Origin: Promethearchaeia archaeon
Lineage (GTDB): Archaea > Asgardarchaeota > Lokiarchaeia > Sigyniarchaeales > SOKP01
Length of the DNA stretch: 41,799 nt
Assembly: GCA_029856085.1 (NCBI GenBank)
Contig: JAHQWI010000075.1
Span: 1-41,799, forward strand
Direction of reading: 5' to 3'
Numbering within the stretch: the first letter of the stretch is position 1; every line of letters starts with the position of its first letter. The translations under genes and the position numbers were made by a program. This document shows positions 5,099-41,548 of the stretch, in pieces. The notes beneath the pieces were generated by a model. That model saw nothing but the letters and a program-made list of their open reading frames with translations, had not been told where the DNA came from and made no database searches.

Positions 5099-5929
5099 CT
5101 ATTCTACAATGGCATAGGCATTCCCAAGTACAACTGGGCCTCGGTCAGTTCGTACTTGAATGATATAACGACCGTTATCCTTCCAACCTTCTGTTGTGAG
5201 GGTTTCTCCAGGAAACACGACACCTTTAAATCTTGCACTGAATTCTATAAAGCGAGAAACATCCCCATCACATAGCCCATATACAATAGCACGTGTAGCA
5301 ATCCCGTATGTACATAAACCATGAAGGATTGGTTTTGGTTGACCTGCCATTTTAGCAAAATTCGGATCTATGTGTAGTGGATTAAAATCTCCATTTAGTC
5401 TATAAAATGCTGCTTGATTTGTACTAGTCTGATAAGAAATGCTAAAATCTGGTTCTACTCCCTCGGGAGGAATTATGGGCTCAGTTTTTGGTCCTGGGTC
5501 CCCACCGAAACCCCCTGAACCACCAACGAAAAAGACATACCTTGTATCAAATATATGCTCACCTTCTGACGAATGCCCGGATATTTTTGTATGTATAACA
5601 GCAGCTTTACCTTTATCGTATATATGTTCTATAACGGCTTTTGTATTTATTGTTCCATTTGGTTTAAAAGGTACATAAAGACGGATTAATTGCTCACCAT
5701 GTAATAATCGGACAAAATCAGTTCCCTTTGGGAAAAGTAGTCCGCTGCCTGCGACTATCGTTGCAAAACTCGGAAACACTTTCATATCGCCTTTTACTCT
5801 TTCATAAACAAAGGCTAAATCTTCTGCTTGTGCACCAATTCCCAAATTATACAAGGCACTCATTTTCCAATCGTACTTAAATGTTCCCTCTCTTGTTTGT
5901 CCTACTGAATTTGAATCTATTTTTGACAT
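5099..5929 (-). CDS. MaoC-like / (R)-specific 2-enoyl-CoA hydratase (MFE-2 hydratase-2 type)
   Basis: Hydratase-2 motif YRLNGDFNPLHIDPNFAKMAGQPKPILHGLCTYG. Tandem paralogs at 6050-6889 and 7063-7896. Confidence 0.93.
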   Translation of the reverse strand: MSKIDSNSVGQTREGTFKYDWKMSALYNLGIGAQAEDLAFVYERVKGDMKVFPSFATIVAGSGLLFPKGTDFVRLLHGEQLIRLYVPFKPNGTINTKAVIEHIYDKGKAAVIHTKISGHSSEGEHIFDTRYVFFVGGSGGFGGDPGPKTEPIIPPEGVEPDFSISYQTSTNQAAFYRLNGDFNPLHIDPNFAKMAGQPKPILHGLCTYGIATRAIVYGLCDGDVSRFIEFSARFKGVVFPGETLTTEGWKDNGRYIIQVRTDRGPVVLGNAYAIVE

Positions 5930-6049
5930 TCCTATTTTTCACTTATTTTTATAAATTGAATTTTTTGAGTAATAATACTAAATACAGATCAAATTAAAAA
6001 TAATTTCTAAAAAAAGGTAAATAAAAGGGATTTGAAATGCAAATTTATT

Positions 6050-6889
6050 TTACTCTACAACAGCGTATGCATTACCTAAAACTGTTGATCTTTCAGTTTT
6101 TACTTGGATTATATAGCGTCCGTTATCTTTCCAGCCTTCTGTTGTCAAAGTTTCACCAGGATATACCTCGCTAGTAAATCTTGCTTTAAATTCTTTAAAA
6201 CGTGAAACATCTCCATCACAAAGACCATAAACTATAGACCTTGTGGCATAGCCATAGGTACATAATCCGTGAAGGATTGGTCTGTCAAATCTTCCACTTC
6301 TCTTAGCAAATACAGGATCTAAATGTAATGGGTTGTAATCGCCACTTAATCTATATATAGCTGCTTGATTTATATTGGTTTTATATGATAAACTAAAATC
6401 TGGTTCTTTTCCCTCAGGAGGATCTAACGGTTCAGCTTTGGGACCACGATCTCCACCCCAACCACCTTCACCAATATAGAAATGAACATATTTGGCATCG
6501 AAAATATGTTCGCCATCAGGAGTTCTACCCGACATTCTAGTATGAATAACAGCAGCTTTCCCCTTATCAAACATATTTTCACATACCCCTTTGACTTTTA
6601 ATTCCCCTTCAGATGGAAAAGGCTTAACAAGTTTTATCATTTGTTCTCCATGGATAAATCGCGCACCATCAACGGGCTTACTACTAAATCTTGGGAATCC
6701 TGCTCCCGCGAGAATACAGGCATAACTAGGGAAGACTTGTACACCTCCAGGATTTCGCTCATAAACAAACTTGAGTTCATCTGGTTGAGCACCAATCCCA
6801 AGATTATAAAGTATTACATCTTTCCAAGTATATTTAATCGTCCTTTCTTCGGTTTCTTTACCAATAATATCTAAATTTAAACTTGTCAT
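6050..6889 (-). CDS. MaoC-like / (R)-specific 2-enoyl-CoA hydratase (paralog 2)
   Basis: YRLSGDYNPLHLDPVFAKRSGRFDRPILHGLCTYG; same architecture as neighbours. Confidence 0.93.
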   Translation of the reverse strand: MTSLNLDIIGKETEERTIKYTWKDVILYNLGIGAQPDELKFVYERNPGGVQVFPSYACILAGAGFPRFSSKPVDGARFIHGEQMIKLVKPFPSEGELKVKGVCENMFDKGKAAVIHTRMSGRTPDGEHIFDAKYVHFYIGEGGWGGDRGPKAEPLDPPEGKEPDFSLSYKTNINQAAIYRLSGDYNPLHLDPVFAKRSGRFDRPILHGLCTYGYATRSIVYGLCDGDVSRFKEFKARFTSEVYPGETLTTEGWKDNGRYIIQVKTERSTVLGNAYAVVE

Positions 6890-7062
6890 ATTTACTACTC
6901 ACTAATTTTTAGATTTTTTTTAACTAATTTATATTTCGAATAATTAATTAATCATTTCAATTAAACATTATTTCTGCTTAATTTCTCTGGAGTTAAGTTA
7001 CAATGAAAGAAACAACATAAAAATAGAAAAAAAAGAAAAAATCCTTAATATTTTTTTAGAAA

Positions 7063-7896
7063 TTACTCAACAATTGCATGAGCGTTGCTGAGGACTACTG
7101 TATCTCCTTTTCGAACTTGAATTATATAACGCCCGTTATCCTTCCAGCCTTCAGTAATGAGTGTTTCTCCGGGATAAACGACATTTGTAAATCTTGCTTT
7201 AAATTCCTTGAAACGAGACACATCTCCATCACAAAGACCATATATTATAGCTCGAGTTGCATGGCCATAAGTACATAACCCATGGAGTATTGGTTTCTCT
7301 TGACCACCTTGACGTGCCAATACAGGATCTATATGTAAAGGGTTCAAATCACCATTAAGTCTGTAAAGAACTGCTTGATTTTCAGTAGTTTTGTATGTTA
7401 TACTAAAATCTGGTTCTACACCTTCAGGGGGTGTTAAAGTTTCACTTTTAGGACCTCGTTCTCCTCCAAATCCACCCGCCCCCAGGTAAAAGAAAGCTGA
7501 TTTGACATCAAATAAGGGTTCTCTCTCTTTGGTAAGAGCGGTGAATTTAACATGAATAACCGCTGCTTTACCTTTATCAAAAATATCGGTGACCTCACTG
7601 AAACAGATTACTTCTCCTGAAGAAGGAAAAGGTTTATGCAAATGGATTAATTCCTCTCCATGTATGAACCTGGGAAAAAAAACATTTCCCATGTTGCGTG
7701 GAAACGCAATTCCTCTAGCGATGGTTGCAAAACTTGGGAATACTTTAATTCCCCCTGGAGTATTCTCATAAACAAAGGGGAGTTCATCTGCCTGAGCACC
7801 AATTCCTAGAGCATAAAGTACTGCATCTCTCCAAGTATATTTAAAAGTCACTTCGGGGTTCTTAACACCAACGCAATTTAAATCTAATCCAGACAT
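7063..7896 (-). CDS. MaoC-like / (R)-specific 2-enoyl-CoA hydratase (paralog 3)
   Basis: YRLNGDLNPLHIDPVLARQGGQEKPILHGLCTYG; same architecture as neighbours. Confidence 0.93.
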   Translation of the reverse strand: MSGLDLNCVGVKNPEVTFKYTWRDAVLYALGIGAQADELPFVYENTPGGIKVFPSFATIARGIAFPRNMGNVFFPRFIHGEELIHLHKPFPSSGEVICFSEVTDIFDKGKAAVIHVKFTALTKEREPLFDVKSAFFYLGAGGFGGERGPKSETLTPPEGVEPDFSITYKTTENQAVLYRLNGDLNPLHIDPVLARQGGQEKPILHGLCTYGHATRAIIYGLCDGDVSRFKEFKARFTNVVYPGETLITEGWKDNGRYIIQVRKGDTVVLSNAHAIVE

Positions 7897-9991: not shown

Positions 9992-10792
9992 CTAAATTCC
10001 AGCATTAATAGTAAAACCACCATCAACAACTATTTTTGCACCTGAAATATAACTCCCTGCTTTTGATGCCAGAAACACAATTGTTCCCTTAATATCATCT
10101 CCTTTGCCGAATCGCTTCATTGGTATTAGGTTCAATAAAGGTATTCCAATCATTTTGTACATTGGTCCATTTTTATCTTGAAGAAATTCCATCATACCTT
10201 CTTCCATATTGCCTGGAAGAATAGCATTTACCCTAATATTATGTTTACCCCATTCTACTGCTAAAGATCTTGAAAGACCTATAACTCCTATTTTAGAGGT
10301 AGCATAAGCAGTCATCCCACTTGAAAACCCTACTTGTCCATTTTCACTTGAAAAATTGATAATACATCCGTTTTTTTGTCTAATCATCATTTTTCCTATT
10401 TCACGGCAACATAGAAAGGTTCCTGTTATATTTGTACTGATGATACTATTCCATCGTTCCAAACTATATGTTTTGGATTGTGCCATATCTGATATTCCAG
10501 CATTATTCACTAATATATCGCATTTTCCGTAGTGGTCTTTCATAATATTTGCCATTTGCTTTACATCATCTTCCTTTGTTATATCACATTTTATTGAAAT
10601 GCTATTACTGCCAATTTTTTTCAACTTTTCAACTGCATCCTCTAATTTTCCATGAATATCTCTGCCACAAATCGCAACATCTGCTCCTGCTTCAGCTAAT
10701 CCTTCAGCTGAAAAGAATCCTAATCCTCTACCTCCACCGGTGACAAGAGCAATTTGATTATCTAATTTAAACAAATCTTTTATATGTGTCAT
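9992..10792 (-). CDS. SDR-family oxidoreductase
   Basis: TGGGRGLG, LVNNAGIS, YATSK catalytic motif, C-term SGAKIVVDGGFTINAG. Confidence 0.92.
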   Translation of the reverse strand: MTHIKDLFKLDNQIALVTGGGRGLGFFSAEGLAEAGADVAICGRDIHGKLEDAVEKLKKIGSNSISIKCDITKEDDVKQMANIMKDHYGKCDILVNNAGISDMAQSKTYSLERWNSIISTNITGTFLCCREIGKMMIRQKNGCIINFSSENGQVGFSSGMTAYATSKIGVIGLSRSLAVEWGKHNIRVNAILPGNMEEGMMEFLQDKNGPMYKMIGIPLLNLIPMKRFGKGDDIKGTIVFLASKAGSYISGAKIVVDGGFTINAGI

Positions 10793-10891
10793 AAAATCAC
10801 TTTGAGTATTGATTTTATTAAAAAATAGTATATAATAGTAAAAAAAAAGAATGTGTTTATTCTTATTAAACTAGAAATAAATAAAATACAG

Positions 10892-12169
10892 TTAGGCGTC
10901 AAGATTTTCAATTATTGTTGCTACTCCCTGTCCGCCTCCAACACAGGCGTTGGCTATACCGTACTTAGCTTTCTTATCTTTCAAAATCCTTGCTAAGGTT
11001 CCTGTAAGTCGAATCATAGTTGACCCTAAAGGATGCCCAATAGCAGTAGAACCACCCATAACATTGACTTTTTCCCAGGGGAGGTTGAATTTGTCCATGC
11101 AATTCAAAGCAACAATACAAAATGCTTCATTTATTTCCCAATAATCAATATCTTCCGCTTTCATACCAGCGATATCTAAAGCTCGTTTGGTAGCAGGAAC
11201 TGGCCCTCTACCCATTGTTGAGGGATGTACTGCTGCCCAACCGATAGATATAATTCTCGCCATAGGATCAATGCCTCTCTTCTTTGCTTCTTCAGCTTCC
11301 ATACAAACGGCGGTTGTAGCGCCCGCATTCAATGGTGAGGAATTTCCTACAGTAATTACACCTTGGTCAGTCCCTTCTCTCTTTACATAACCCTCTTTAC
11401 CGCCATTTTTTTCTAAATAAAATGGGCGAGATAATCTTGGTAATTTAGCATGACCTTCCATACTCGACGGTCTTACGTTCATATCTCTATCGACCATTAA
11501 CGGAGTGTTAACATCTCCTTCTACATGTCCTTCAATTGGTATGATTTCACCTTTAAACCACCCTTCTTCATGACTTTTAACTGCTAAATTATGAGCTCGT
11601 ACTCCAAACTTATCTAAGACTTCTTTAGTGAATGTGGGTACCTCTTGTTCATATAGTTTCTGAGCTGTTTGAAGCATGTTAAACGATGTCTGCATTTCTA
11701 AATCAGGACGAAAATATTTACTACCTTTCTCTATCAATTTTAAATTAGGCTCAGTACCTCTACCTCTGACTCGTGTCATGTGTTCAAAGCCATTAGCCAA
11801 TACACATTTAGCGTTTCCAGTCATAATTTCCATAATCCCAATATGCATTCCTGAACCTGCTGAACCACATTGTCTGTCAATCGAAAATCCTGGAACACTT
11901 GCAGGAAAACCTGCTAAAAAAAGGGGAATTCTCCCTCCATATGACCAGTTTTCCAAAGTCCCATTTGCAACTCCAAGAGAGGCTTCTTCAATATCTTTTC
12001 TTTCTACGCCTTTATCAGCTAATTTCTCATCAAAGAATTTTATCAACAATTCAGCAACTAATTCATCTCCTCTAATTTCACCAAAAACATCTCTTTCAGG
12101 TTGTTTTGGTCTCGAACGAGAGAATGCAGTTCGAGCATAATCAATTAACCAAACTTCTTTTAATTCCAT
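10892..12169 (-). CDS. Thiolase (acetyl-CoA C-acyltransferase family)
   Basis: IDRQCGSAGSGMH (nucleophile Cys), EINEAFC, GGSTAIGHPLGSTMIR, C-term ACVGGGQGVATIIENLDA. Confidence 0.94.
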   Translation of the reverse strand: MELKEVWLIDYARTAFSRSRPKQPERDVFGEIRGDELVAELLIKFFDEKLADKGVERKDIEEASLGVANGTLENWSYGGRIPLFLAGFPASVPGFSIDRQCGSAGSGMHIGIMEIMTGNAKCVLANGFEHMTRVRGRGTEPNLKLIEKGSKYFRPDLEMQTSFNMLQTAQKLYEQEVPTFTKEVLDKFGVRAHNLAVKSHEEGWFKGEIIPIEGHVEGDVNTPLMVDRDMNVRPSSMEGHAKLPRLSRPFYLEKNGGKEGYVKREGTDQGVITVGNSSPLNAGATTAVCMEAEEAKKRGIDPMARIISIGWAAVHPSTMGRGPVPATKRALDIAGMKAEDIDYWEINEAFCIVALNCMDKFNLPWEKVNVMGGSTAIGHPLGSTMIRLTGTLARILKDKKAKYGIANACVGGGQGVATIIENLDA

Positions 12170-14593: not shown

Positions 14594-15739
14594 ATGATAA
14601 AAAAAATTGAAATTCATGGCTTTTGTGATGACCAATTCGAAAATGTAAAGGAAGTTTTCGCTGAAAACTTTAAACCCGATTTGGATGTAGGTGCTTCACT
14701 TGCACTAACAATTAATGGTAAGTTTGTAATTGATATTTGGGCTGGCTATGCTGATGAGGCTCAAACTAAACCATGGAAAAAAGATACAATAGTTAATGTA
14801 TATTCAACTACGAAAGTAATGACAGCCCTTTGCGTGCTCATGCTAGTTGATAGAGGTCTTCTTGATCTTGATGCCCCCGTAGCACAATATTGGCCTGAAT
14901 TTGCTCAAGCAGGTAAAGAAAATTTACCTGTACGTTATCTTCTTAGTCACACAGCAGGTATTCCTGGTTTCGATAAACGTATTCAACCTGAGACGCTCTA
15001 CGATTGGGATGCAATAGTTAACATACTTGCTGCACAGAAATCCTGGTGGAAACCTGGAACTAAAAGTGGATATCATTCAATTACATTTGGGTATCTTCTA
15101 GGTGAATTGGTTAGACGGATAACAGGTAAAACGCTTGGTATTTTTTTTAAAGAAGAGGTAGCAGAGCCCCTTAAAGCAGACTTTCATATAGGTTTATCTG
15201 CAGAACATGATTCCCGCGTTGGAGAATTGATTCCTCCTTCTCCAGCAGATCTTCAAAATGTGGAGAATATTGATCCAAATTCAATACCAATAAGAGTGTT
15301 ACTAAATCCTGTTCTGACAGCTAGAGAAACTCTAACTCGTGAATGGCGAGCAGCAGAAATCCCTGCTTCAAATGGTCATGGGAATGCTAGATCAGTGGCT
15401 CGAGTAGGAACAGCATTAGCTTGTGGAGGTGAGATTGATGGTGTAAGGCTGTTGTCTTTAAAAACTATTGAGAAGGCTTTAGAAGAGCAATCATATAGTA
15501 CTGATTTAGTTCTTAATAAACCTATACGTTTTGGTTTAGGTTTTGGTCTTGTTAGTAAAGATATGCCAATAAGTCCAAATCCGCGTGCATTTTATTGGGG
15601 CGGATGGGGGGGCTCGCATGTCACTATGGATCTTGATGCTAAGTTAAGCTGGGCATATGTTATGAATAGAATGGTGATGTCTCTAACTGGAGACCCTCGT
15701 ACTATGAGTATACGAGAAGCTATATATAAAGCTTTATAA
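14594..15739 (+). CDS. Serine hydrolase, beta-lactamase/EstB-like family
   Basis: SxxK motif VNVYSTTKVMTAL, LLSHTAGIPGF, YHSITFGYLLGELVRR; paralog at 40403-41548. Confidence 0.92.
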   Translation: MIKKIEIHGFCDDQFENVKEVFAENFKPDLDVGASLALTINGKFVIDIWAGYADEAQTKPWKKDTIVNVYSTTKVMTALCVLMLVDRGLLDLDAPVAQYWPEFAQAGKENLPVRYLLSHTAGIPGFDKRIQPETLYDWDAIVNILAAQKSWWKPGTKSGYHSITFGYLLGELVRRITGKTLGIFFKEEVAEPLKADFHIGLSAEHDSRVGELIPPSPADLQNVENIDPNSIPIRVLLNPVLTARETLTREWRAAEIPASNGHGNARSVARVGTALACGGEIDGVRLLSLKTIEKALEEQSYSTDLVLNKPIRFGLGFGLVSKDMPISPNPRAFYWGGWGGSHVTMDLDAKLSWAYVMNRMVMSLTGDPRTMSIREAIYKAL

Positions 15740-18288: not shown

Positions 18289-18846
18289 TTACAATTTTGA
18301 TTTATAAATTACCGAAGGTTTTATTTTTTTATTATTTTGAAATCCTATGGCTTGAGTATTAGATCCATATTTTTTCTGCAAATTTTCTATAGTGTCTACA
18401 TCCAATGCATACATAGGGCATGCTTCCACGCATATTGTTTGTTGACCTTTTTCCAATCTCTCTACACATAGATCACATTTTCTCATTTTAGCATTAATAG
18501 TTGAATTAAATTGCGGCACATCCCATGGACAAACTTTTAAACATTTAGCTCCACATTCTTCTTTACCTAAGCACAGTTCTTGATCCACTACAATAATTCC
18601 ATCAGATTCTCTTTTTATAATTGCATTTGTAGGACATGCTTTTACACATGGAGGATCAGCACAGTGATTGCATGCTAATGCGAGGTAAGAAAGAGTTAGA
18701 TTAGGAAACTTCCCCTTTTCAATTGCTATTATACGCATCCAATTTTCAGGTCCCGCATCAATATCATTCCAGTCTTTACAGGCAACTGAGCATGTATAAC
18801 AACCTGTACATCTTGTTTGATCAAAGTAAAATCCCATTTGTTTCAT
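18289..18846 (-). CDS. DmsB-like four-cluster [4Fe-4S] ferredoxin subunit
   Basis: CTGCYTCSVACKDW, CNHCADPPCVKACPTNAI, CLGKEECGAKCLKVCPWDVPQF, CDLCVERLEKGQQTICVEACPMYALD. Start overlaps the stop of the DmsA-like gene. Confidence 0.93.
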   Translation of the reverse strand: MKQMGFYFDQTRCTGCYTCSVACKDWNDIDAGPENWMRIIAIEKGKFPNLTLSYLALACNHCADPPCVKACPTNAIIKRESDGIIVVDQELCLGKEECGAKCLKVCPWDVPQFNSTINAKMRKCDLCVERLEKGQQTICVEACPMYALDVDTIENLQKKYGSNTQAIGFQNNKKIKPSVIYKSKL

Positions 18847-21140
18847 GAAGATCCCTCCGATTCTTTTTTTGAATATAGTTCTACTTGAACTAGGGCGCTA
18901 TTCATGGGAAAAGCTCCTCCAGGAGAACGCGAATCTTTTGTCAGAACGTTCCCACACCCCCCAACATCAACACCTTCTTCGTTTGGATTATACCATGCTC
19001 CTTGATAGATGACTACTGCCCCAGGTATCACACGTTCTGTAACATTAGCAGGGATACGAACTCGTCCTCTATCGTTAAAAATGTCAACTAGATCTCCGTA
19101 TTCAATCCCTCTTGATTTGGAATCTATTGGATTTATCCAAACCATATGAGGTTCTACTTCCTCAAGCCATGGAATCATGTTTATACTTGAGTGAGTTCTT
19201 CTTTTATTATGGGTTGTGAGTAATTGTAAGGGATATTTTTTTGCTAAAGGAGCATCATAATGTTCTTCATGACTTAGATATTTAGGAATCGGTGGCATAT
19301 TTGGGATATTTAATTCTGCAATATGTTCACAAAATATCTCAATTTTACCCGATAATGTAGGGAAGGGATTATTCTCTGGATCCGCAATTTGTTCTTTAAA
19401 AGCAACGAATGACTCATCAACTTTTACTTTGTAAAATCCATCTCTTTTCATTTCGTCATAACTTTTTATGTCTTTACGAGGGGATGTAAATATTCGTAAG
19501 ATTTGATCTTCTGGTAAACTCAATAGACCTGGTTCAATACCTAATTTTTTAGATAATTCCTTGCATATCTCCAGATCCGATTTCGATTCATATAAAGAAT
19601 CAATCGCTTTATTTAAGTAAATGTAATAAGGTGAACCAAGCCAAGGTACTGCAATATCATTACGTTCCATAAAAGTATTAACTGGTAATAAGATATCCGC
19701 AAATTTAGCTGTCGGAGTCATAAATTGTTCGTGAATTACAATAAATTCAAGAGATTTCAAGGCTTTTATGCCTTTGTTAACATTGCTATATTGATTTAAA
19801 CGATTTTCTGCTGCTATATAAGCCATTTTCAAATCCGCGGGATAACCTCCTTTTCGTCCTTGTAATATAGCATCATAATATTCATTAAAATGAATACGAG
19901 TACTTGCTGGATTAGTCCCTCCTCTTAATTTATGTAAAGCATCTTTTCGAGGAGTGGCTCTAAAGTCAATAGGATTACCTCTTGGAGTTTGTTTCCTTTC
20001 GACTTCTTTTTTTTCTTCTTGTTTAATAGGTCCTGTCTTTTTCTTCCTTGTTGATGAAACTGTCTCCCGACTATAATATGCCCGCATGAAACCAGAGGCA
20101 TATCCACCATCAATACCGATATTTCCAGTAATAACACAAAGCACATTAGCAGCTCTAGAATATTGTTCTCCCAATGCAGTTCGAGCAGGACCCCATCCTG
20201 CCATAAGAGCTGCTGGTTTATTAAGGGCATACTCCTTAGCTAGACTTATAATTGTTTCTGCTGGCACTTTAGTAATTTCTTCTGCCCATTGTGGAGTCTT
20301 TGGGATTCCATCAGCTTGTCCCATTATATAAGCCTTATATTTATCATATCCAACTGTGTATTTATCAATGAAATTCTGATCTTGAAGGTTCTCAGTGATA
20401 ATTACATATGCCATAGCTATTAACATAGCAGTATCAGTACCTGGTCGAATAGGTATCCACTGATCCGCTAAGACCGCTGCTGAATCAGTAAAAATTGGAT
20501 CAATATTTATGATCTTGATACCTTTTTCTCTTGCTTTAGCTAACATTAAAGGTGTACCGGGGTCCCATATTGTATTAGCTGGATTCCAACCCCACATGAT
20601 GATAAGTTTAGAGTTGAATAAATCCTCACGAGCATTTCCAGTCATCATGGTTCCATAGGTGGCCATAGACGCAAAAAGAGCGCCTTCATAGGAAGGTGCG
20701 CCCCACATTCGAGTATACCCTCCAAATTGATTAAGCATTAAACCTACAGGCACAACACCATGGAGCATACCCTGATTTCCGGAACCGGGAACAAATAAAA
20801 TAGAAGAATTTCCATATTTTTCCTTAATTTCTTTCATTTTATTTGCTACTATATCTAATGCCTCATCCCAAGATATTCTTTCAAATCTACCCTCACCTCG
20901 TTCTCCAATACGACGCATGGGATATTTTAACCTATCTGGATGATATACTTTTTGTCGATATGCCCTTCCGCGTAAACAAGCTCGTAATTGGGGGTCTTCA
21001 CCATTATCTGTTTCAAAACGTATTATCTTACCGTCTTTAACATGAGCTTTAAGAGTACAGCGACCTCCGCAATCATGACAACAACCAGTATTAATTATTT
21101 TAATATCGCTTTTTTCTATTTCGATATTATCTTTATTCAT
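18843..21140 (-). CDS. Molybdopterin oxidoreductase catalytic subunit (DMSO reductase family, DmsA-like)
   Basis: N-term CCHDCGGRCTLKAHVKDGKIIRFE...C; WDEALDIV; GGYTRMWGAPSYEG; MWGWNPANTIWDPGTP; C-terminal molydop-binding domain INPIDSKSRGIEYGDLVDIFNDRGRVRIPANVTERVIPG. Confidence 0.94.
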   Translation of the reverse strand: MNKDNIEIEKSDIKIINTGCCHDCGGRCTLKAHVKDGKIIRFETDNGEDPQLRACLRGRAYRQKVYHPDRLKYPMRRIGERGEGRFERISWDEALDIVANKMKEIKEKYGNSSILFVPGSGNQGMLHGVVPVGLMLNQFGGYTRMWGAPSYEGALFASMATYGTMMTGNAREDLFNSKLIIMWGWNPANTIWDPGTPLMLAKAREKGIKIINIDPIFTDSAAVLADQWIPIRPGTDTAMLIAMAYVIITENLQDQNFIDKYTVGYDKYKAYIMGQADGIPKTPQWAEEITKVPAETIISLAKEYALNKPAALMAGWGPARTALGEQYSRAANVLCVITGNIGIDGGYASGFMRAYYSRETVSSTRKKKTGPIKQEEKKEVERKQTPRGNPIDFRATPRKDALHKLRGGTNPASTRIHFNEYYDAILQGRKGGYPADLKMAYIAAENRLNQYSNVNKGIKALKSLEFIVIHEQFMTPTAKFADILLPVNTFMERNDIAVPWLGSPYYIYLNKAIDSLYESKSDLEICKELSKKLGIEPGLLSLPEDQILRIFTSPRKDIKSYDEMKRDGFYKVKVDESFVAFKEQIADPENNPFPTLSGKIEIFCEHIAELNIPNMPPIPKYLSHEEHYDAPLAKKYPLQLLTTHNKRRTHSSINMIPWLEEVEPHMVWINPIDSKSRGIEYGDLVDIFNDRGRVRIPANVTERVIPGAVVIYQGAWYNPNEEGVDVGGCGNVLTKDSRSPGGAFPMNSALVQVELYSKKESEGSS

Positions 21141-29565: not shown

Positions 29566-31236
29566 TTATTTTTCTTGAATTGGAATATAAAGATCTAATT
29601 CTGAATTATCAGAATTTAAACTAAATCTTTGGTCATACCATTCAAATTCTGCTCCGAATGGCACTCGTTCATATCTTGGATTGTTAGGAAGCCAATCTCC
29701 AATTATATATCTGTAAGTTTCACCTAAATTGTTCAATTTTCCAATTAATGTAAAAACAGCATATTTTTGAGCAGGAAATGTTTCAGTTATCATTCCCTCA
29801 GGCACATCTTCAACTTTGGATACTTCATTACAAACAATAAAACGATTTTCTCCTTTTTCAGTGAGTTCTTTAGTAATTATAGAAATTGCTAATGCATGGG
29901 ATTGGTCTTTATGTGGGACTTTAGTAATGAGCCCTTGAAATTTTGGCCATATAGTTGCGGGGTTACGTGTTTCTCTTTTGCCAGTGTCGTCTACACCTAC
30001 CACCTGGAACTCTTCTTTATCTACAAATGATGGTCCTCTCAAAAACAATTTAAATACGCTTGAAATTTCTTGTTTTTCACCTAAAACTAAATGAACTTTT
30101 TCCAGTTCAGTCGGAATATCGATCATCTGAGGGCATTTTTCAAGGCATTCACCACACTTTATACAAAGAGAAGCATTCCCTTCATCCTCCATCGTTTTTA
30201 ACTCTTCTTCAGATGTTGCTAATATGTTATATTTGGTTATCTGTTCCTCTTTATTTTCAATCCAAAGAAGTTCGTTTAATAACCTAAAATTTTGAGGGAT
30301 ATTAACTCCAGAGGGACATGGTTGGCAGTACAAGCAAAATGTACAAGGGATTATTGATTTTTTTCTATAGCGAATAGCCATATCAGAAATTAAATCTAAA
30401 TCTTCTTGACTTAAAGTATTAATCCCTGAATTATTTGCACTCTCTATGTTTTCTTTAACCATCTGCATTGAACCCATTCCAGACAATACTAAAGAGACAC
30501 CAGGATGATTCCATACATATTGAAGTGCCCAATCTGCAGGTGTTCGCTTTTTAGGAGCATTTTCTATTATTTCTTCAATTTCCTTAGTCGGAGTTGCTAA
30601 TTTTCCCCCTTTAATTGGTTCCATTACAACAACTGCAATACCTTTGCTTGCTGCATATTCTAATCCTTTGGTTGTAGCTTGAGTATTGTAATCAACTAAA
30701 TTCCATTGAATTTGGGACATATCCCAATTATAATAATCAATGATTTCTTTAAAAACATCAAAGGAGTCATGAAAAGAAAATCCAATTCCTTTAATTTTTC
30801 CTTTTGCTTTAGCTTCTTCCATCTTTTTAATTAAACCCAGTTTTTTTACTAATTCAAACGTCAGTTTATTTAATCCATGGAAGAGATATATATCAATATA
30901 TTCAGTTTGTAGTTTTTTCAGTTGAATATTTAAAAATTTATCAAAATCCTCAGTTTTGGTTACTCGACCCATTGGTAACTTAGTTACTAGCTTGATTTTC
31001 TCACGATATCCATCTTGTAATGCTTTTCCGACGATTACCTCACTCATTTCATTATGGTACGGAAAAGCAGTATCAAAGTAATTAACGCCATTATCGATTG
31101 CATATCGAATCATGCTAATCGCGTTTTCTTCATCTACCACTTCATTCCCATTTACTTTCTTCGTGAGAAATCTCATGCATCCAAAACCTAGTGCCGAGAC
31201 TTCCCAATCCAATGATCCCATCTTTCTATATTTCAT
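29566..31236 (-). CDS. Fe-S aldo/keto reductase with C-terminal GyrI-like (AraC effector-binding-like) domain
   Basis: AKR N-term RKMGSLDWEVSALGFGCMRF...YFDTAFPYHNEMSE. Cys motifs CTFCLYCQPCP and CIKCGECLEKCPQ. C-term ETFPAQKYAVFTLIGKLNNLGETYRYIIGDWLPNNPRYERVPFGAEFEWYDQRFS...LDLYIPIQ. Confidence 0.87.
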   Translation of the reverse strand: MKYRKMGSLDWEVSALGFGCMRFLTKKVNGNEVVDEENAISMIRYAIDNGVNYFDTAFPYHNEMSEVIVGKALQDGYREKIKLVTKLPMGRVTKTEDFDKFLNIQLKKLQTEYIDIYLFHGLNKLTFELVKKLGLIKKMEEAKAKGKIKGIGFSFHDSFDVFKEIIDYYNWDMSQIQWNLVDYNTQATTKGLEYAASKGIAVVVMEPIKGGKLATPTKEIEEIIENAPKKRTPADWALQYVWNHPGVSLVLSGMGSMQMVKENIESANNSGINTLSQEDLDLISDMAIRYRKKSIIPCTFCLYCQPCPSGVNIPQNFRLLNELLWIENKEEQITKYNILATSEEELKTMEDEGNASLCIKCGECLEKCPQMIDIPTELEKVHLVLGEKQEISSVFKLFLRGPSFVDKEEFQVVGVDDTGKRETRNPATIWPKFQGLITKVPHKDQSHALAISIITKELTEKGENRFIVCNEVSKVEDVPEGMITETFPAQKYAVFTLIGKLNNLGETYRYIIGDWLPNNPRYERVPFGAEFEWYDQRFSLNSDNSELDLYIPIQEK

Positions 31237-35944: not shown

Positions 35945-38272
35945 TTGGTAGATAATATGGTAAATCAAGAAGAAAATATAAATGATGAAGGAGTAAAAAT
36001 TATAAGAACTACTTCTGCATTTGATTGTGGAGGTAGGTGTCCCTTAAGGTTCCATGTTAAGGATGGAAAGGTTATACGGGTAGAAGGTGATGATTCTGCA
36101 GACTCTGACAATCAACTGAGGGCATGTTTAAGGTGTAGGTCAATTAGACAGTACATTTATCATCCAGAAAGATTAAGATATCCCTTAAAAAGAGCTGGTC
36201 CCAAGGGTTCGGGTAAATTTGAAAGGATTACATGGGATGAAGCTTATGATATTATCGTAGAGAAACTAAAGGAAACAATAGAAAAATATGGAAATCAAAG
36301 TATATTATATATTACTGGAGGAGGTTATTTTGGAGCATTACACGGTGCCGGAGTGGCTTATGCAAGATTATTGAATTCGCTTGGTGGATATTCAACATCA
36401 TATGGTAATATTTCTTCCCAAGGAGCAATTTTTGGAACTCAAGCATCATATGGTTTTGGTCAGATCTTTGTTGGCAACAGCCGGGAAGATTGGATGAATA
36501 CAAAATTAATTATATGCTGGGGTTGGGATCCTGCTCGTCAGATTTCAGGGACAAATACATTATGGTGGTTAATCAAGGCTAAAGAAAATGGAGCTAAAGT
36601 TATTGTTATTGACCCACGCTATTCAGATACTGCTTTAGTAGCTGCTGATCAATGGATCCCTATAATTCCCGGAACTGATACAGCTATGATGGTAGCGATG
36701 GCTAATGTTATCCTTAGAGAAAATTTACAAGATCAGGAGTTCCTCGATAAATATACTCATGGTTTTGATAAATATAAAGCATATGTCTTGGGTGATGAAG
36801 ATGGAATACCTAAAACTCCAGAATGGGCTGAAAAGATTTGTGGCGTACCTAGTTCAACAATTGAGAATCTAGCACGAGAATATGCTAATACCAAACCTGC
36901 CGCGTTAGAAGATTGCCAAGGTCCTGCTCGTTCTGCTATGGGTGGACAATACAATCGAGGAGCTATAACACTCTCTGCAATGACGGGAAATATTGGAAAA
37001 CCTGGTGGAAGTGCTTGTGGCGGACTTCATGGCATTCCATATGGTCATATGTTTAGAGGAATTATGATTCCTCCAGGTAGAAATACTGCTTGGCCAAAAG
37101 GTAAGTCTTTAAGAGGAAATATTAATCCCAGAGATCGTTTAGATACCAGAGTTCATGTAAATAAGATTTTTGATGCAATTCTTAATGGTAAATCTGGAGG
37201 TTATCCTTTTGACGTTAAATTTGCTTGGTTTGCGGTTTGTGATTTCGTAAATCAAATAGGAAATGCAAATAAATCTGCAAAAGCTATGAGTCGAGAGGAT
37301 TTGTTTACAGTTGTTCCAGAATTATGGCTAACGCCTACTGCTCAATATGCTGATATTGTCCTTCCTGTAACTGGATTTTCAGCAAGGAGTGACCTTACAA
37401 GACCATGGCCTTCAGGTCCTTATTTTGGTCATATGAATAAAGCAATTGAACCTATGGGTGAATGTAAGGATGATATACAAATAGCAGAAGAATTAGCTGA
37501 AAGACTAGGTATTAAAAACTTTAAAAGAGAGGAACTTATTGAACAATATTTAAAAAATCCCCAACTCGCTCCAGTGAAAGGAATATTAGACAAATATGAT
37601 GATATCAATGATAAATGGCTTCGCTTACTCGCTGTTATGGGACAAGATGTTCGGGAAAATATTGAAGATTATGACAAATATAAAAAGGAAGGGCTCCATA
37701 GAATTGAACTTAAAGAACCATACGTAGCATTCAAAAAGAACATAGACGATTTTGAAAAAAATCCATTCCCAACACCTTCAGGGAAGATTGAAATCTATTC
37801 CGATCAAGTTGCAAGCTGGAATAATCCTATTTGTCCACCTATTGCGAAATATATACCAACATGGGAGAATCGTGATGATCCTTTAGCAGAAAAATATCCA
37901 CTTCAATTGATTTCACCTCATCCAAGGCAACGGGTCCATTCCGAACTATATAAAATCGAATGGCTCATGGAAGCAATACCTCATCGTATGTGGATCAATC
38001 CTGCTGATGCAGAACCTAGAGACATTAGAAACGGCGATATGTGTTTAGTCTCCAACGATAGAGGGACGGTGGCAATAGAAGCATTTGTCACTAGAAGAAT
38101 TATTCCAGGAGTTGTTTGTATTTATGAAGGTGCATGGTATAATCCTGATGAGAATGGAATCGACAGAGGTGCATGTGCAAATACACTTACTAAGGATGCA
38201 ATGAGTGAAGGAGGCGCTGCTGCGTTAAAAACATGTCTGGTTCAAGTGATATTGGAGAAAGGAGGTGCCTAA
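35945..38272 (+). CDS. Molybdopterin oxidoreductase catalytic subunit (DMSO reductase family, DmsA-like), paralog 2
   Basis: AFDCGGRCPLRFHVKDGKVIRVEG...C; WDEAYDIIVEKL; GGYSTSYGNISSQG; CWGWDPARQISGTNTLWWL; C-term WINPADAEPRDIRNGDMCLVSNDRGTVAIEAFVTRRIIPG. Confidence 0.95.
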   Translation: MVDNMVNQEENINDEGVKIIRTTSAFDCGGRCPLRFHVKDGKVIRVEGDDSADSDNQLRACLRCRSIRQYIYHPERLRYPLKRAGPKGSGKFERITWDEAYDIIVEKLKETIEKYGNQSILYITGGGYFGALHGAGVAYARLLNSLGGYSTSYGNISSQGAIFGTQASYGFGQIFVGNSREDWMNTKLIICWGWDPARQISGTNTLWWLIKAKENGAKVIVIDPRYSDTALVAADQWIPIIPGTDTAMMVAMANVILRENLQDQEFLDKYTHGFDKYKAYVLGDEDGIPKTPEWAEKICGVPSSTIENLAREYANTKPAALEDCQGPARSAMGGQYNRGAITLSAMTGNIGKPGGSACGGLHGIPYGHMFRGIMIPPGRNTAWPKGKSLRGNINPRDRLDTRVHVNKIFDAILNGKSGGYPFDVKFAWFAVCDFVNQIGNANKSAKAMSREDLFTVVPELWLTPTAQYADIVLPVTGFSARSDLTRPWPSGPYFGHMNKAIEPMGECKDDIQIAEELAERLGIKNFKREELIEQYLKNPQLAPVKGILDKYDDINDKWLRLLAVMGQDVRENIEDYDKYKKEGLHRIELKEPYVAFKKNIDDFEKNPFPTPSGKIEIYSDQVASWNNPICPPIAKYIPTWENRDDPLAEKYPLQLISPHPRQRVHSELYKIEWLMEAIPHRMWINPADAEPRDIRNGDMCLVSNDRGTVAIEAFVTRRIIPGVVCIYEGAWYNPDENGIDRGACANTLTKDAMSEGGAAALKTCLVQVILEKGGA

Positions 38273-38274
38273 AT

Positions 38275-40281
38275 ATGCAAGTAGGATTTTATTTTGACCA
38301 AACAAGGTGTGCAGGTTGTAATGCTTGTAGAGTGGCATGTAAGGATTGGCATGACCAACCATCAGGTTCAGCATCATGGATGAGAATTAATTATCAAGAA
38401 GAAGGTCCATTTCCGAATATTTTTGCTAGCTATCTTATCTCAAATTGTTATCATTGTGAAGAACCTGTTTGTGCTTTTGTTTGTCCGAATGAGGCAATAA
38501 GTAAAAGAGAGGAAGATGGGATTGTTGTAGTTGATAAAGATAAATGTCGGGAAGAAGTTCCATGCGGCTTAATTTCGAAAGAAAAAATGGGCGCTAGTTA
38601 CTCATATGGTGAATTACAAGCACCTTGTCAAATCGCATGCCCGGTTCATCTTCATATCCCTGCGTACACTGCTTTGATAGCTAAGGGTAAGTTTAAGGAA
38701 TCTTTAGATTTAATTAGACAGAGGATGCCTTTACCTTCAGTATGTGGTCGTGTTTGCCTTCATCCTTGCGAAGAGGTTTGTGCTCGAAAAGATGTGGATC
38801 AAGCAATTGCTATTGAAGCACTGAAAGGATTTGTAGCAGATAACGTATCTGAAGAACCGCCAAAACGCTTACTGCAAACTCAATCAGAAAAGGTTGCAAT
38901 AATTGGGTCTGGTCCTGCAGGTTTAGCAGCAGCTTACGATCTAATTAGAATGGGTTATGGTGTTACTATTTTTGAAGCGTCGTCCCGTGCTGGAGGTATG
39001 CTGGTCGCAGGAATTCCAGAATACAGGTTACCACGTGATGTTCTCAACAGGGATATTGATTACATTAAAGCACTTGGGGTTGAAATAAAGACTAATACTT
39101 TAATAGATCTAAATCAAGGTTTAGAGGATCTATTAAAACAGGGATATGGTGCTGTACTAGTTGCAATTGGGGCTCATAAAGGGAAGAGACTTGGTATTCC
39201 TGGGGCTGATCTAGATGGGGTTCTAGTAGGAACTTCATTTATGCGAGATGTTAATCTTGGTAAAGAAGTTAAACTCGGTAATAAAGTATTAATCATAGGT
39301 GGTGGAAATGTTGCGATGGATTGTGCACGCACTGCCCGTCGTCTTGGTGCTACAGAAGTAGGTGTATCATGTCTTGAATGTTGTGATGATATGCCTGCAG
39401 ATATATTGGAAGTTGATCAAGCTCGTGAAGAAGGAATTCAGATCTATGATTCTCGTTCTTTCACGAAAATTTTGAATAATAATGGAAAAGTAGCTGGAGT
39501 AGGATGTCTTGAGATTACAGGATGTACATTTGATGATGATGGAGAAGCTCACTTTGATGTAGTAAGTGATGAAGAACACACTTTAGAGGCTGATACAGTT
39601 ATTTTTGCTATAGGTCAAGTTCCTGAAGTTAGTAATTCTAGTATAATAAAAATTAGTAAGAGGGGTACTATCACCGCAGATTCTGAAACTTTGATGCTTG
39701 GAACCAAGGGCTTGTTTGTTGCCGGAGATTGCTTTAGCGGTATAGCAAGTATTATTGATGCGATCGCTAGTGGTCAAAAAACAGCATCTAAAATTCATCG
39801 TTATCTTCAAGGTGATGTACTTAGAGTTAGATCAAGTCCAGAAATTGCAGCAACCGAAATAATAATCGACATCCCCCCAGAGACGGAGAAAAAAGAGCGC
39901 CAATCCATGCCACTTCTGTCAGCATCCGAGAGAGTTTCAAATTTCAAGGAGGTCACTTTAGGTTTCAGTGAGGAAGCAGCTATAACTGAAGCTGAGAGAT
40001 GTCTTAATTGCGCAGGCCACTTATGTAAAGATGTTTGTCCATATTCTGCGCCTCAATTCGTCGAGGAAGAAAAAGCAAGGATGCAGAAATGTAATTATTG
40101 CGTTGATCGATTTGATATTGGGAAACAACCTATATGTGTTGAAGCTTGTTATGCGCGTGCTCTTGATTCGGGAACCCTAGAAGAATTAAAGTCAAAATAT
40201 GGAGATATTCAAGAATCACCGGGTTTTTCTTATTCAATCAGTGCAAAACCAGCAATTTTATTTAAGCCAAAAAAGAAATAA
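38275..40281 (+). CDS. DmsB-like ferredoxin with nested GltD-like FAD/NAD(P)H oxidoreductase module
   Basis: DmsB part: CAGCNACRVACKDW, CYHCEEPVCAFVCPNEAI, CREEVPCG. Insert: APCQIACPVHLHIPAY...CGRVCLHPCEEVC...VAIIGSGPAGLAAAYDL...VLIIGGGNVAMDCARTARRLGA...FVAGDC. DmsB part resumes: CLNCAGHLCKDVCPYSAPQF, CNYCVDRFDIGKQPICVEACYARALD. Start at ATG 38275 preceded by ggaggtg; the ORF track extends to 38233. Confidence 0.93.
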   Translation: MQVGFYFDQTRCAGCNACRVACKDWHDQPSGSASWMRINYQEEGPFPNIFASYLISNCYHCEEPVCAFVCPNEAISKREEDGIVVVDKDKCREEVPCGLISKEKMGASYSYGELQAPCQIACPVHLHIPAYTALIAKGKFKESLDLIRQRMPLPSVCGRVCLHPCEEVCARKDVDQAIAIEALKGFVADNVSEEPPKRLLQTQSEKVAIIGSGPAGLAAAYDLIRMGYGVTIFEASSRAGGMLVAGIPEYRLPRDVLNRDIDYIKALGVEIKTNTLIDLNQGLEDLLKQGYGAVLVAIGAHKGKRLGIPGADLDGVLVGTSFMRDVNLGKEVKLGNKVLIIGGGNVAMDCARTARRLGATEVGVSCLECCDDMPADILEVDQAREEGIQIYDSRSFTKILNNNGKVAGVGCLEITGCTFDDDGEAHFDVVSDEEHTLEADTVIFAIGQVPEVSNSSIIKISKRGTITADSETLMLGTKGLFVAGDCFSGIASIIDAIASGQKTASKIHRYLQGDVLRVRSSPEIAATEIIIDIPPETEKKERQSMPLLSASERVSNFKEVTLGFSEEAAITEAERCLNCAGHLCKDVCPYSAPQFVEEEKARMQKCNYCVDRFDIGKQPICVEACYARALDSGTLEELKSKYGDIQESPGFSYSISAKPAILFKPKKK

Positions 40282-40334: not shown

Positions 40335-40394
40335 GATATTTAGAGGAAAGATATTTAGAGGAAAGATATTTAGAGGAAAGATATTTAGAGGAAT
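40335..40394 (+). repeat. Four tandem copies of a 15-bp unit (gatatttagaggaaa) upstream of a start codon
   Basis: Direct reading: copies at 40335, 40350, 40365 and 40380; the last ends gaat instead of gaaa. Each contains agagga, an SD-like core. Confidence 0.97.
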
Positions 40395-40402
40395 GTTTAG
40401 AT

Positions 40403-41548
40403 ATGGATGAAGAAATTGAAATTCATGGTTTTTGTGATGAAAGGTTCGCGGCTGTAAAAGCAGCATTTGCGAAAAATTTTAGAGTAGACGGAGATATTGG
40501 AGCTTGTTTTGCTACTACTCTAAACGGGAAGTTTGTTATTGATATTTGGGGTGGTTATGCTGACAAAGCTAAATCGAGACCATGGGAAGAAAACACAATT
40601 GTAAATGTATATTCAACAACCAAAGTAATGACAATAATATGTGCACTCATGTTAGTCGATCGCGGACTACTCGATCTTGATGCTCCCGTAGCGAAATACT
40701 GGCCAGAATTCGCCCAGAACGGAAAAGAAAAGATTTTAGTTAGACAAATTTTCAGTCACTCCTCTGGTTTAGCCGGATGGGAAGAAAGAATAAGAACCGA
40801 AGATCTTTATGATTGGGATAAAGTTGTTAATCTATTAGCTGCTCAAAAACCATGGTGGGAACCAGGAACCAAGAGTGGATATCATGCAATAACACATGGT
40901 TATCTTTTAGGGGAGTTAGTTAGACGTATAGCTGGTAAATCTTTAGGTACTTTTTTTAAAGAAGAAGTGACTGGTCCACTTAATGCAGATTTCCATATTG
41001 GATTTGAACAAGAACATGATAAAAGAGTAGCCGATTTAGTACCTTGGGAAGAAGGTGATATAGGTTATAATGAAATGGATCCTAATTCAATTTTCAACCG
41101 AGTCTTCTCTAATCCGGTCGTACCCCCAGAAAAAACAAAAACACGAGAATGGCGCGCTGCTGAAATCCCTGCAGCAGGGGGACATGGTAATGCAAGATCA
41201 GTGGCGAGGATCGCATCAGCAATAGCATGTGGTGGTAAAGTAGATGATATTCGGCTTTTAAAAATGGAGACAATCAAAAAAGCAATGGAAGAGCAACACC
41301 ATTTTCAAGATCTTGTTATGTTAATGCCCATTCGGTTTGGTGTAGGTTTTGGTCTTCCTAGTAAAGAGATGCCTTTTCCAAACCCAAATACCGTATTTTG
41401 GGGTGGAGCAGGAGGAAGTTTAGTTGTGATGGACTTAGATAAGAAACTCAGTTTCTCCTATGTAATGAATCAGATGAAAATGACGACAACAGGCGATACG
41501 CGATCTGCAAGACTAATGTTGTCTCTATATGCTGGGTTGAATAAATAG
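40403..41548 (+). CDS. Serine hydrolase, beta-lactamase/EstB-like family (paralog of 14594-15739)
   Basis: VNVYSTTKVMTII, IFSHSSGLAGWEERI, YHAITHGYLLGELVRR, EWRAAEIPAAGGHGNARSVARIA. Confidence 0.93.
   Translation: MDEEIEIHGFCDERFAAVKAAFAKNFRVDGDIGACFATTLNGKFVIDIWGGYADKAKSRPWEENTIVNVYSTTKVMTIICALMLVDRGLLDLDAPVAKYWPEFAQNGKEKILVRQIFSHSSGLAGWEERIRTEDLYDWDKVVNLLAAQKPWWEPGTKSGYHAITHGYLLGELVRRIAGKSLGTFFKEEVTGPLNADFHIGFEQEHDKRVADLVPWEEGDIGYNEMDPNSIFNRVFSNPVVPPEKTKTREWRAAEIPAAGGHGNARSVARIASAIACGGKVDDIRLLKMETIKKAMEEQHHFQDLVMLMPIRFGVGFGLPSKEMPFPNPNTVFWGGAGGSLVVMDLDKKLSFSYVMNQMKMTTTGDTRSARLMLSLYAGLNK

Follow-up and report, generated by a model that had tools for sequence, protein, structure and literature searches.

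A GltD-type flavoprotein module nested inside the DmsB-type ferredoxin of a Lokiarchaeal gene pair predicted to encode an NADH-driven molybdoenzyme

In a 41,799-nucleotide (nt) stretch of DNA from a Lokiarchaeal MAG (contig JAHQWI010000075.1, here referred to as the window), a DmsA-like gene is directly followed by an open reading frame at positions 38275 to 40281 on the plus strand. A sequence-only reading had proposed that this frame encodes a GltD-like flavin module nested inside a DmsB-type ferredoxin, whose third cysteine motif it splits. We therefore asked whether such an arrangement is genuine, where exactly the module is inserted, and what kind of enzyme the gene pair may encode.

One open frame, shared by Lokiarchaea and bacteria

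The frame runs uninterrupted from the ATG at position 38275 (an in-frame ATG is also present at 38233) to position 40281 and encodes 668 amino acids. Pfam searches revealed, in order along the protein, Fer4_9 (residues 11 to 75), Fer4_20 (115 to 193), Pyr_redox_2 (206 to 500), and the second half of the Fer4_11 profile (574 to 633). Similarly, the DmsB model TIGR02951 matched in two stretches with GltD-type models lying between them. Residues 1 to 97 and 581 to 666 aligned collinearly with a standalone DmsB-like protein encoded in the same window (18289 to 18846, minus strand), which lies beside its own DmsA partner (18843 to 21140, minus strand). Neither of these genes is part of the system, and they served only as comparators.

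To exclude an assembly artifact, we searched for homologs. Full-length orthologs without stop codons (residues 1 to 668) were found in four more genomes of the genus at 81 to 97% identity and in three genomes of a sister genus at 75 to 77%. The genome itself carries a second copy, 88% identical over residues 481 to 668, that is cut by a contig end (C125; locus L085, positions 10566 to 11132). A scan of 85,000 species genomes added 13 bacterial MAGs whose match crosses the first junction, at 45 to 70% over the first 200 residues and, for all but the gap-masked locus L125, at 51 to 63% over the full length. These belong to Dehalococcoidia, MAGs labeled Deltaproteobacteria, Hydrogenedentota, one Pseudomonadales MAG, and one Proteobacteria MAG. 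Although all carriers seen are MAGs, one of them is a one-contig Dehalococcoidales chromosome (CP070842). The frequency is nevertheless low, with the nested protein present in 8 of 227 genomes of the Asgard phylum and in 6 of 393 Dehalococcoidia. Collectively, these data excluded chance, frameshift, and misassembly.

Next, we examined whether the fusion arose once. With the insert left out, the DmsB parts of 20 nested proteins formed one clade (99/93) that holds the 8 Lokiarchaeal ones as a subclade (100/99). Only the long-branched L125 fell outside, and one clade for all was not rejected (AU p 0.40). The GltD modules of all 24 nested proteins, L125 included, formed one clade (99/91) against 33 other GltD modules. 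A single fusion in bacteria followed by transfer to Lokiarchaea is therefore the simplest reading. We had also considered that the fusion arose within the genus by insertion into the Lokiarchaeal standalone DmsB, which is 62 to 69% identical and mutually exclusive with the nested form in the genus. This was rejected because the DmsB parts of the nested proteins group with bacterial nested ones and not with those standalones.

Interestingly, a quick tree of the DmsA proteins did not follow this pattern. The Lokiarchaeal nested DmsAs grouped with Lokiarchaeal standalone DmsAs and with L181, a contig of a Desulfobacteraceae MAG, whereas most bacterial nested ones formed another clade, and those of the nested loci L121, L123, L124, and L125 fell in a third region. 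Within this grouping, the DmsA of L181 is sister to the Lokiarchaeal nested DmsAs, but its DmsB is standalone and long-branched, so that L181 represents a possible intermediate or transfer partner. Forcing the Lokiarchaeal nested DmsB parts to join the DmsA-like grouping was disfavored, but only marginally (AU p 0.038 with L181 and 0.053 with the wider group). The nested subunit has thus probably been re-partnered with different DmsAs. Another fusion may exist in a Dehalococcoidia MAG, in which a standalone-like DmsB N-part lies in a 467-amino-acid open frame at a contig end (L212; G272:C253:3415).

A permuted GltD module between the second and third cysteines of group III

The N-terminal DmsB part (38275 to 38568, residues 1 to 98) contains cysteine group I (C12, C15, C18, and C22), group II (C58, C61, C66, and C70), and the first half of group III (C91 and C97). 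It is followed by a linker (38569 to 38619, residues 99 to 115), the GltD module (38620 to 40014, residues 116 to 580), and the C-terminal DmsB part (40021 to 40278, residues 583 to 668) with the second half of group III (C584 and C588) and group IV (C606, C609, C621, and C625). In standalone DmsBs of this group, group III reads C-x5-C-x(2-3)-C-x3-C. In the nested protein, C91-x5-C97-G is followed by the insert, and C584-x3-C588-P then continues the DmsB sequence. The insert extends from about G98 (nt 38568) to about H582 (nt 40020). Alignments in which MAFFT placed the CxxxCP of standalone DmsBs on C118/C122 or C66/C70 of the query were discarded.

The sequence-only reading was correct about the nested order, the split third group, the complete GltD-like module, and the start of the insert; however, it had taken the CLNC motif (nt 40000 to 40011) for the resumption of the ferredoxin. 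The segment just before C584, MPLLSASERVSNFKEVTLGFSEEAAITEAERCLNC, is not DmsB. Using phmmer, residues 540 to 588 were matched to the N terminus of canonical NfnB (5vj7 residues 6 to 46 and 4ylf residues 7 to 51), whereas in NfnABC and StnC the same segment lies, as here, after the flavin domain. The CxxC at 576/579 is thus intrinsic to the module, which is of the circularly permuted Stn/NfnABC type and not a plain GltD, and the ferredoxin resumes only at L583/C584 (nt 40021/40024). In support of this, the best Foldseek hits were 9bov_A and 8oh5_C.

Conservation of the ligand residues corroborated this boundary. In eight permuted relatives, C118, C122, C161, C165, C169, C576, and K184 are all kept, and C579 is kept in all but one, while the columns of C91, C97, and C584 carry no conserved cysteine. 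In 20 nested proteins all of these residues are invariant, with the exception of K184R in L121, and so are all ten cysteines of the N-terminal DmsB part. The ligands therefore divide into 16 cysteines of DmsB, enough for four [4Fe-4S] clusters, and 7 cysteines plus Lys184 of GltD, enough for two. The tightest join is seen in L125, which lacks the linker and reads CVGKAKCG-FPC at the front and CLTCQGM-C at the back, so that ligands of the GltD distal cluster and of DmsB group III are only 3 residues apart on both sides. By inference, the two clusters must be neighbors.

A first AF2 run with a GltD-rich alignment left the DmsB parts at pLDDT below about 45 and was uninformative there. A second run (99 rows), in which DmsB halves split at the expected boundary were added to the alignment, yielded a mean pLDDT of 83.6 and a pTM of 0.79. 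In this model the GltD module mostly reached 85 to 98 and the group II/III region about 66 to 80, while confidence remained low for residues 19 to 57 and 593 to 607.

A predicted soluble NADH-driven reductase

The upstream gene (35945 to 38272, plus strand) encodes a DmsA-like catalytic subunit with the Pfam domains Molybdopterin, Molydop_binding, and Molybdop_Fe4S4. It scored 639 bits with TIGR02166, below the cutoff of 777.7. It has no Tat signal, and its Ser154 (numbered from nt 35954) aligned with Ser147, the Mo-ligand position of DMSO reductase (1dms). An adjacent DmsA was found in 19 of 20 nested loci. A 25-residue insert in the Lokiarchaeal DmsA looked like an adaptation to the nested partner, but it is also present in L181, whose DmsB is standalone. 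Apart from DmsA, no neighbor is conserved across the loci, and gene neighbors thus gave no indication of the substrate.

Other genes of the window include two paralogous serine beta-lactamase-fold esterases (LipL-like; 14594 to 15739 and 40403 to 41548), one of which directly follows the nested gene and also lies next to it in loci L106 and L107. Several tandem copies of an approximately 15-base unit (gatatttagaggaaa) occupy positions 40337 to 40400 (plus strand), just upstream of this next gene. Three tandem paralogs of about 277 amino acids, belonging to one family (5099 to 7896, minus strand), are also found next to DmsAB genes in sister genomes. A 556-amino-acid protein (29566 to 31236, minus strand) fuses an aldo/keto reductase, a Fer4 region, and a GyrI-like/Cass2 small-molecule-binding domain.

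Lys184 aligns with K170 of StnC, which was reported as an unusual ligand of the cluster next to FAD in a non-bifurcating FAD site; K170A and K170C lost most activity, and K170R kept half (PMC10482914). The NADPH-binding YRR motif of NfnB/StnC is Cys-Leu-Glu here, and a Leu-Glu pair is found in 19 of 21 nested proteins. By Rossmann-fold rules, this predicts NADH rather than NADPH in most members. Cofactor use is, however, not uniform, since L121 and L211 keep an Arg/Lys motif (YRR and FRK, respectively), possibly a natural switch in cofactor preference.

In related enzymes, electrons run through the clusters in order FS0 to FS4, with FS4 next to the third subunit (ethylbenzene dehydrogenase, PMC8840923). 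If group III ligates FS4, as expected by analogy with NarH and E. coli DmsB, the module is inserted at the electron-entry cluster, where the quinol subunit DmsC would dock, and would replace that subunit. Consistently, neither DmsC (PF04976) nor NrfD (PF03916) was found in nine Lokiarchaeal genomes, including all eight carriers, although the positive controls were detected, and neither is conserved next to the bacterial nested genes.

Taken together, we consider it likely that the gene pair encodes a soluble, cytoplasmic, NADH-driven molybdoenzyme of the DmsA type, most likely a reductase of an oxo-compound (S- or N-oxide type), although there is no biochemical, transcript, or protein evidence for it. 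The predicted wire runs from NADH to FAD, the proximal cluster (C122, C161, C165, and K184), the distal GltD cluster (C118, C169, C576, and C579), DmsB FS4 (group III), FS3, FS2, FS1, DmsA FS0, Mo-bisMGD, and the substrate. The pairing of clusters in three dimensions is inferred, as are the NADH preference, the reductive direction (from the Ser-ligated Mo and NADH at -320 mV), and a use as an electron sink. Because the module is permuted, its two ends would ligate the same distal cluster and therefore lie close together, so that it can sit in a loop of the ferredoxin without breaking either fold. The arrangement would convert a quinol-dependent architecture into a soluble NADH-dependent one, which bears on how Asgard archaea and Dehalococcoidia can use DMSO-reductase-type enzymes without a matching membrane partner. 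Somewhat more likely than not, these proteins represent a distinct class of soluble molybdoenzyme, born once in anaerobic bacteria and passed to Lokiarchaea, whose portable cassette-bearing subunit now sits beside at least three DmsA lineages and gives anaerobes without a matching membrane partner an NADH-driven oxo-compound reductase.

Alternative readings appear less plausible. The enzyme could work in the oxidative direction, with the Mo subunit oxidizing a low-potential substrate and the GltD module reducing NAD+. GltD-type modules are reversible in principle, and the Lokiarchaeal neighbors include enoyl-CoA hydratase, CoA-ligase, and methyltransferase-like genes, compatible with a catabolic setting. 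Nevertheless, we regard this as unlikely, since the closest solved catalytic subunits are Ser-ligated S/N-oxide reductases, whose couples lie far above NAD+/NADH, and these neighbors are not conserved across loci. It is also doubtful that the ligands have been swapped, so that DmsB group III would consist of C576, C579, C584, and C588, and the stranded C91 and C97 would serve the GltD distal cluster. Indeed, CLNCAGHLCKDVCP alone reads like a complete ferredoxin motif, and C91, C97, and C118 would also complete a GltD-type cluster. However, C576 and C579 are conserved in permuted GltD relatives that have no ferredoxin after them (e.g., L013 and L016), where the columns of C91/C97 are not conserved cysteines, and the C-x5-C spacing of C91/C97 is that of standalone DmsB. 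Nfn-like electron bifurcation at the FAD, coupling NAD(P)H to both the Mo enzyme and a ferredoxin, is very unlikely: the Arg that tunes FAD in NfnB (R201) is conserved as R251, but the proximal cluster has Lys as in StnC instead of the Glu of NfnB (PMC10482914), and no gene other than DmsA recurs across the loci. Finally, an assembly error or a recent decaying fusion without function is refuted by the recurrence of the intact protein, at 45 to 97% identity and with invariant ligand residues, in independent assemblies from two domains.

Relation to known systems

Insertion of a GltD module into another Fe-S protein is known from StnC, and a tandem ferredoxin-GltD from AegA, but nesting in a DmsB-type subunit, inside a cluster's ligand set and coupled to a DmsA, was not found in the open-access papers searched, most subscription papers not being searchable. 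Compared with DmsB, the iron-sulfur subunit of DMSO/selenate reductase (TIGR02951), the nested protein retains all four cysteine groups and an adjacent DmsA, but group III is interrupted by about 485 amino acids, the score falls below the family cutoff (145.8 against 214.1 bits), and there is no DmsC partner. NfnB, the glutamate synthase beta subunit, and dihydropyrimidine dehydrogenase share the FAD and NAD(P)H folds and the two-cluster helical domain with the module; however, they are unpermuted, have Glu or Gln instead of Lys at the proximal cluster, and carry the Arg motif for NADPH. The PRK12771-like GltD proteins with a C-terminal Fe-S tail (L201 to L203) are the nearest non-nested relatives of the module in the same bacterial genomes, but they are encoded by separate genes without DmsB halves around them. 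E. coli AegA and YgfT also combine a ferredoxin of the HydN/DmsB kind and a GltD module in one chain, yet in tandem order with the ferredoxin first (PMC8097209), and the AegA model (NF009408) scored only 245 bits against a cutoff of 1003, with its best stretch restricted to the GltD part. The closest sequence and fold matches are StnC of the Sporomusa-type transhydrogenase and NfnA of NfnABC (PDB 8oh5, 9bov, and 9n5u), which share the permuted GltD module, the Lys ligand at the proximal cluster, and the placement of the module inside another Fe-S scaffold (GltD at 102 to 565 within a NuoG-like protein; PMC10482914). In that case, the host scaffold is NuoG/FdhF-like and feeds the StnAB bifurcating module, whereas here the host is a DmsB-type ferredoxin and the break falls inside the ligand set of one cluster.
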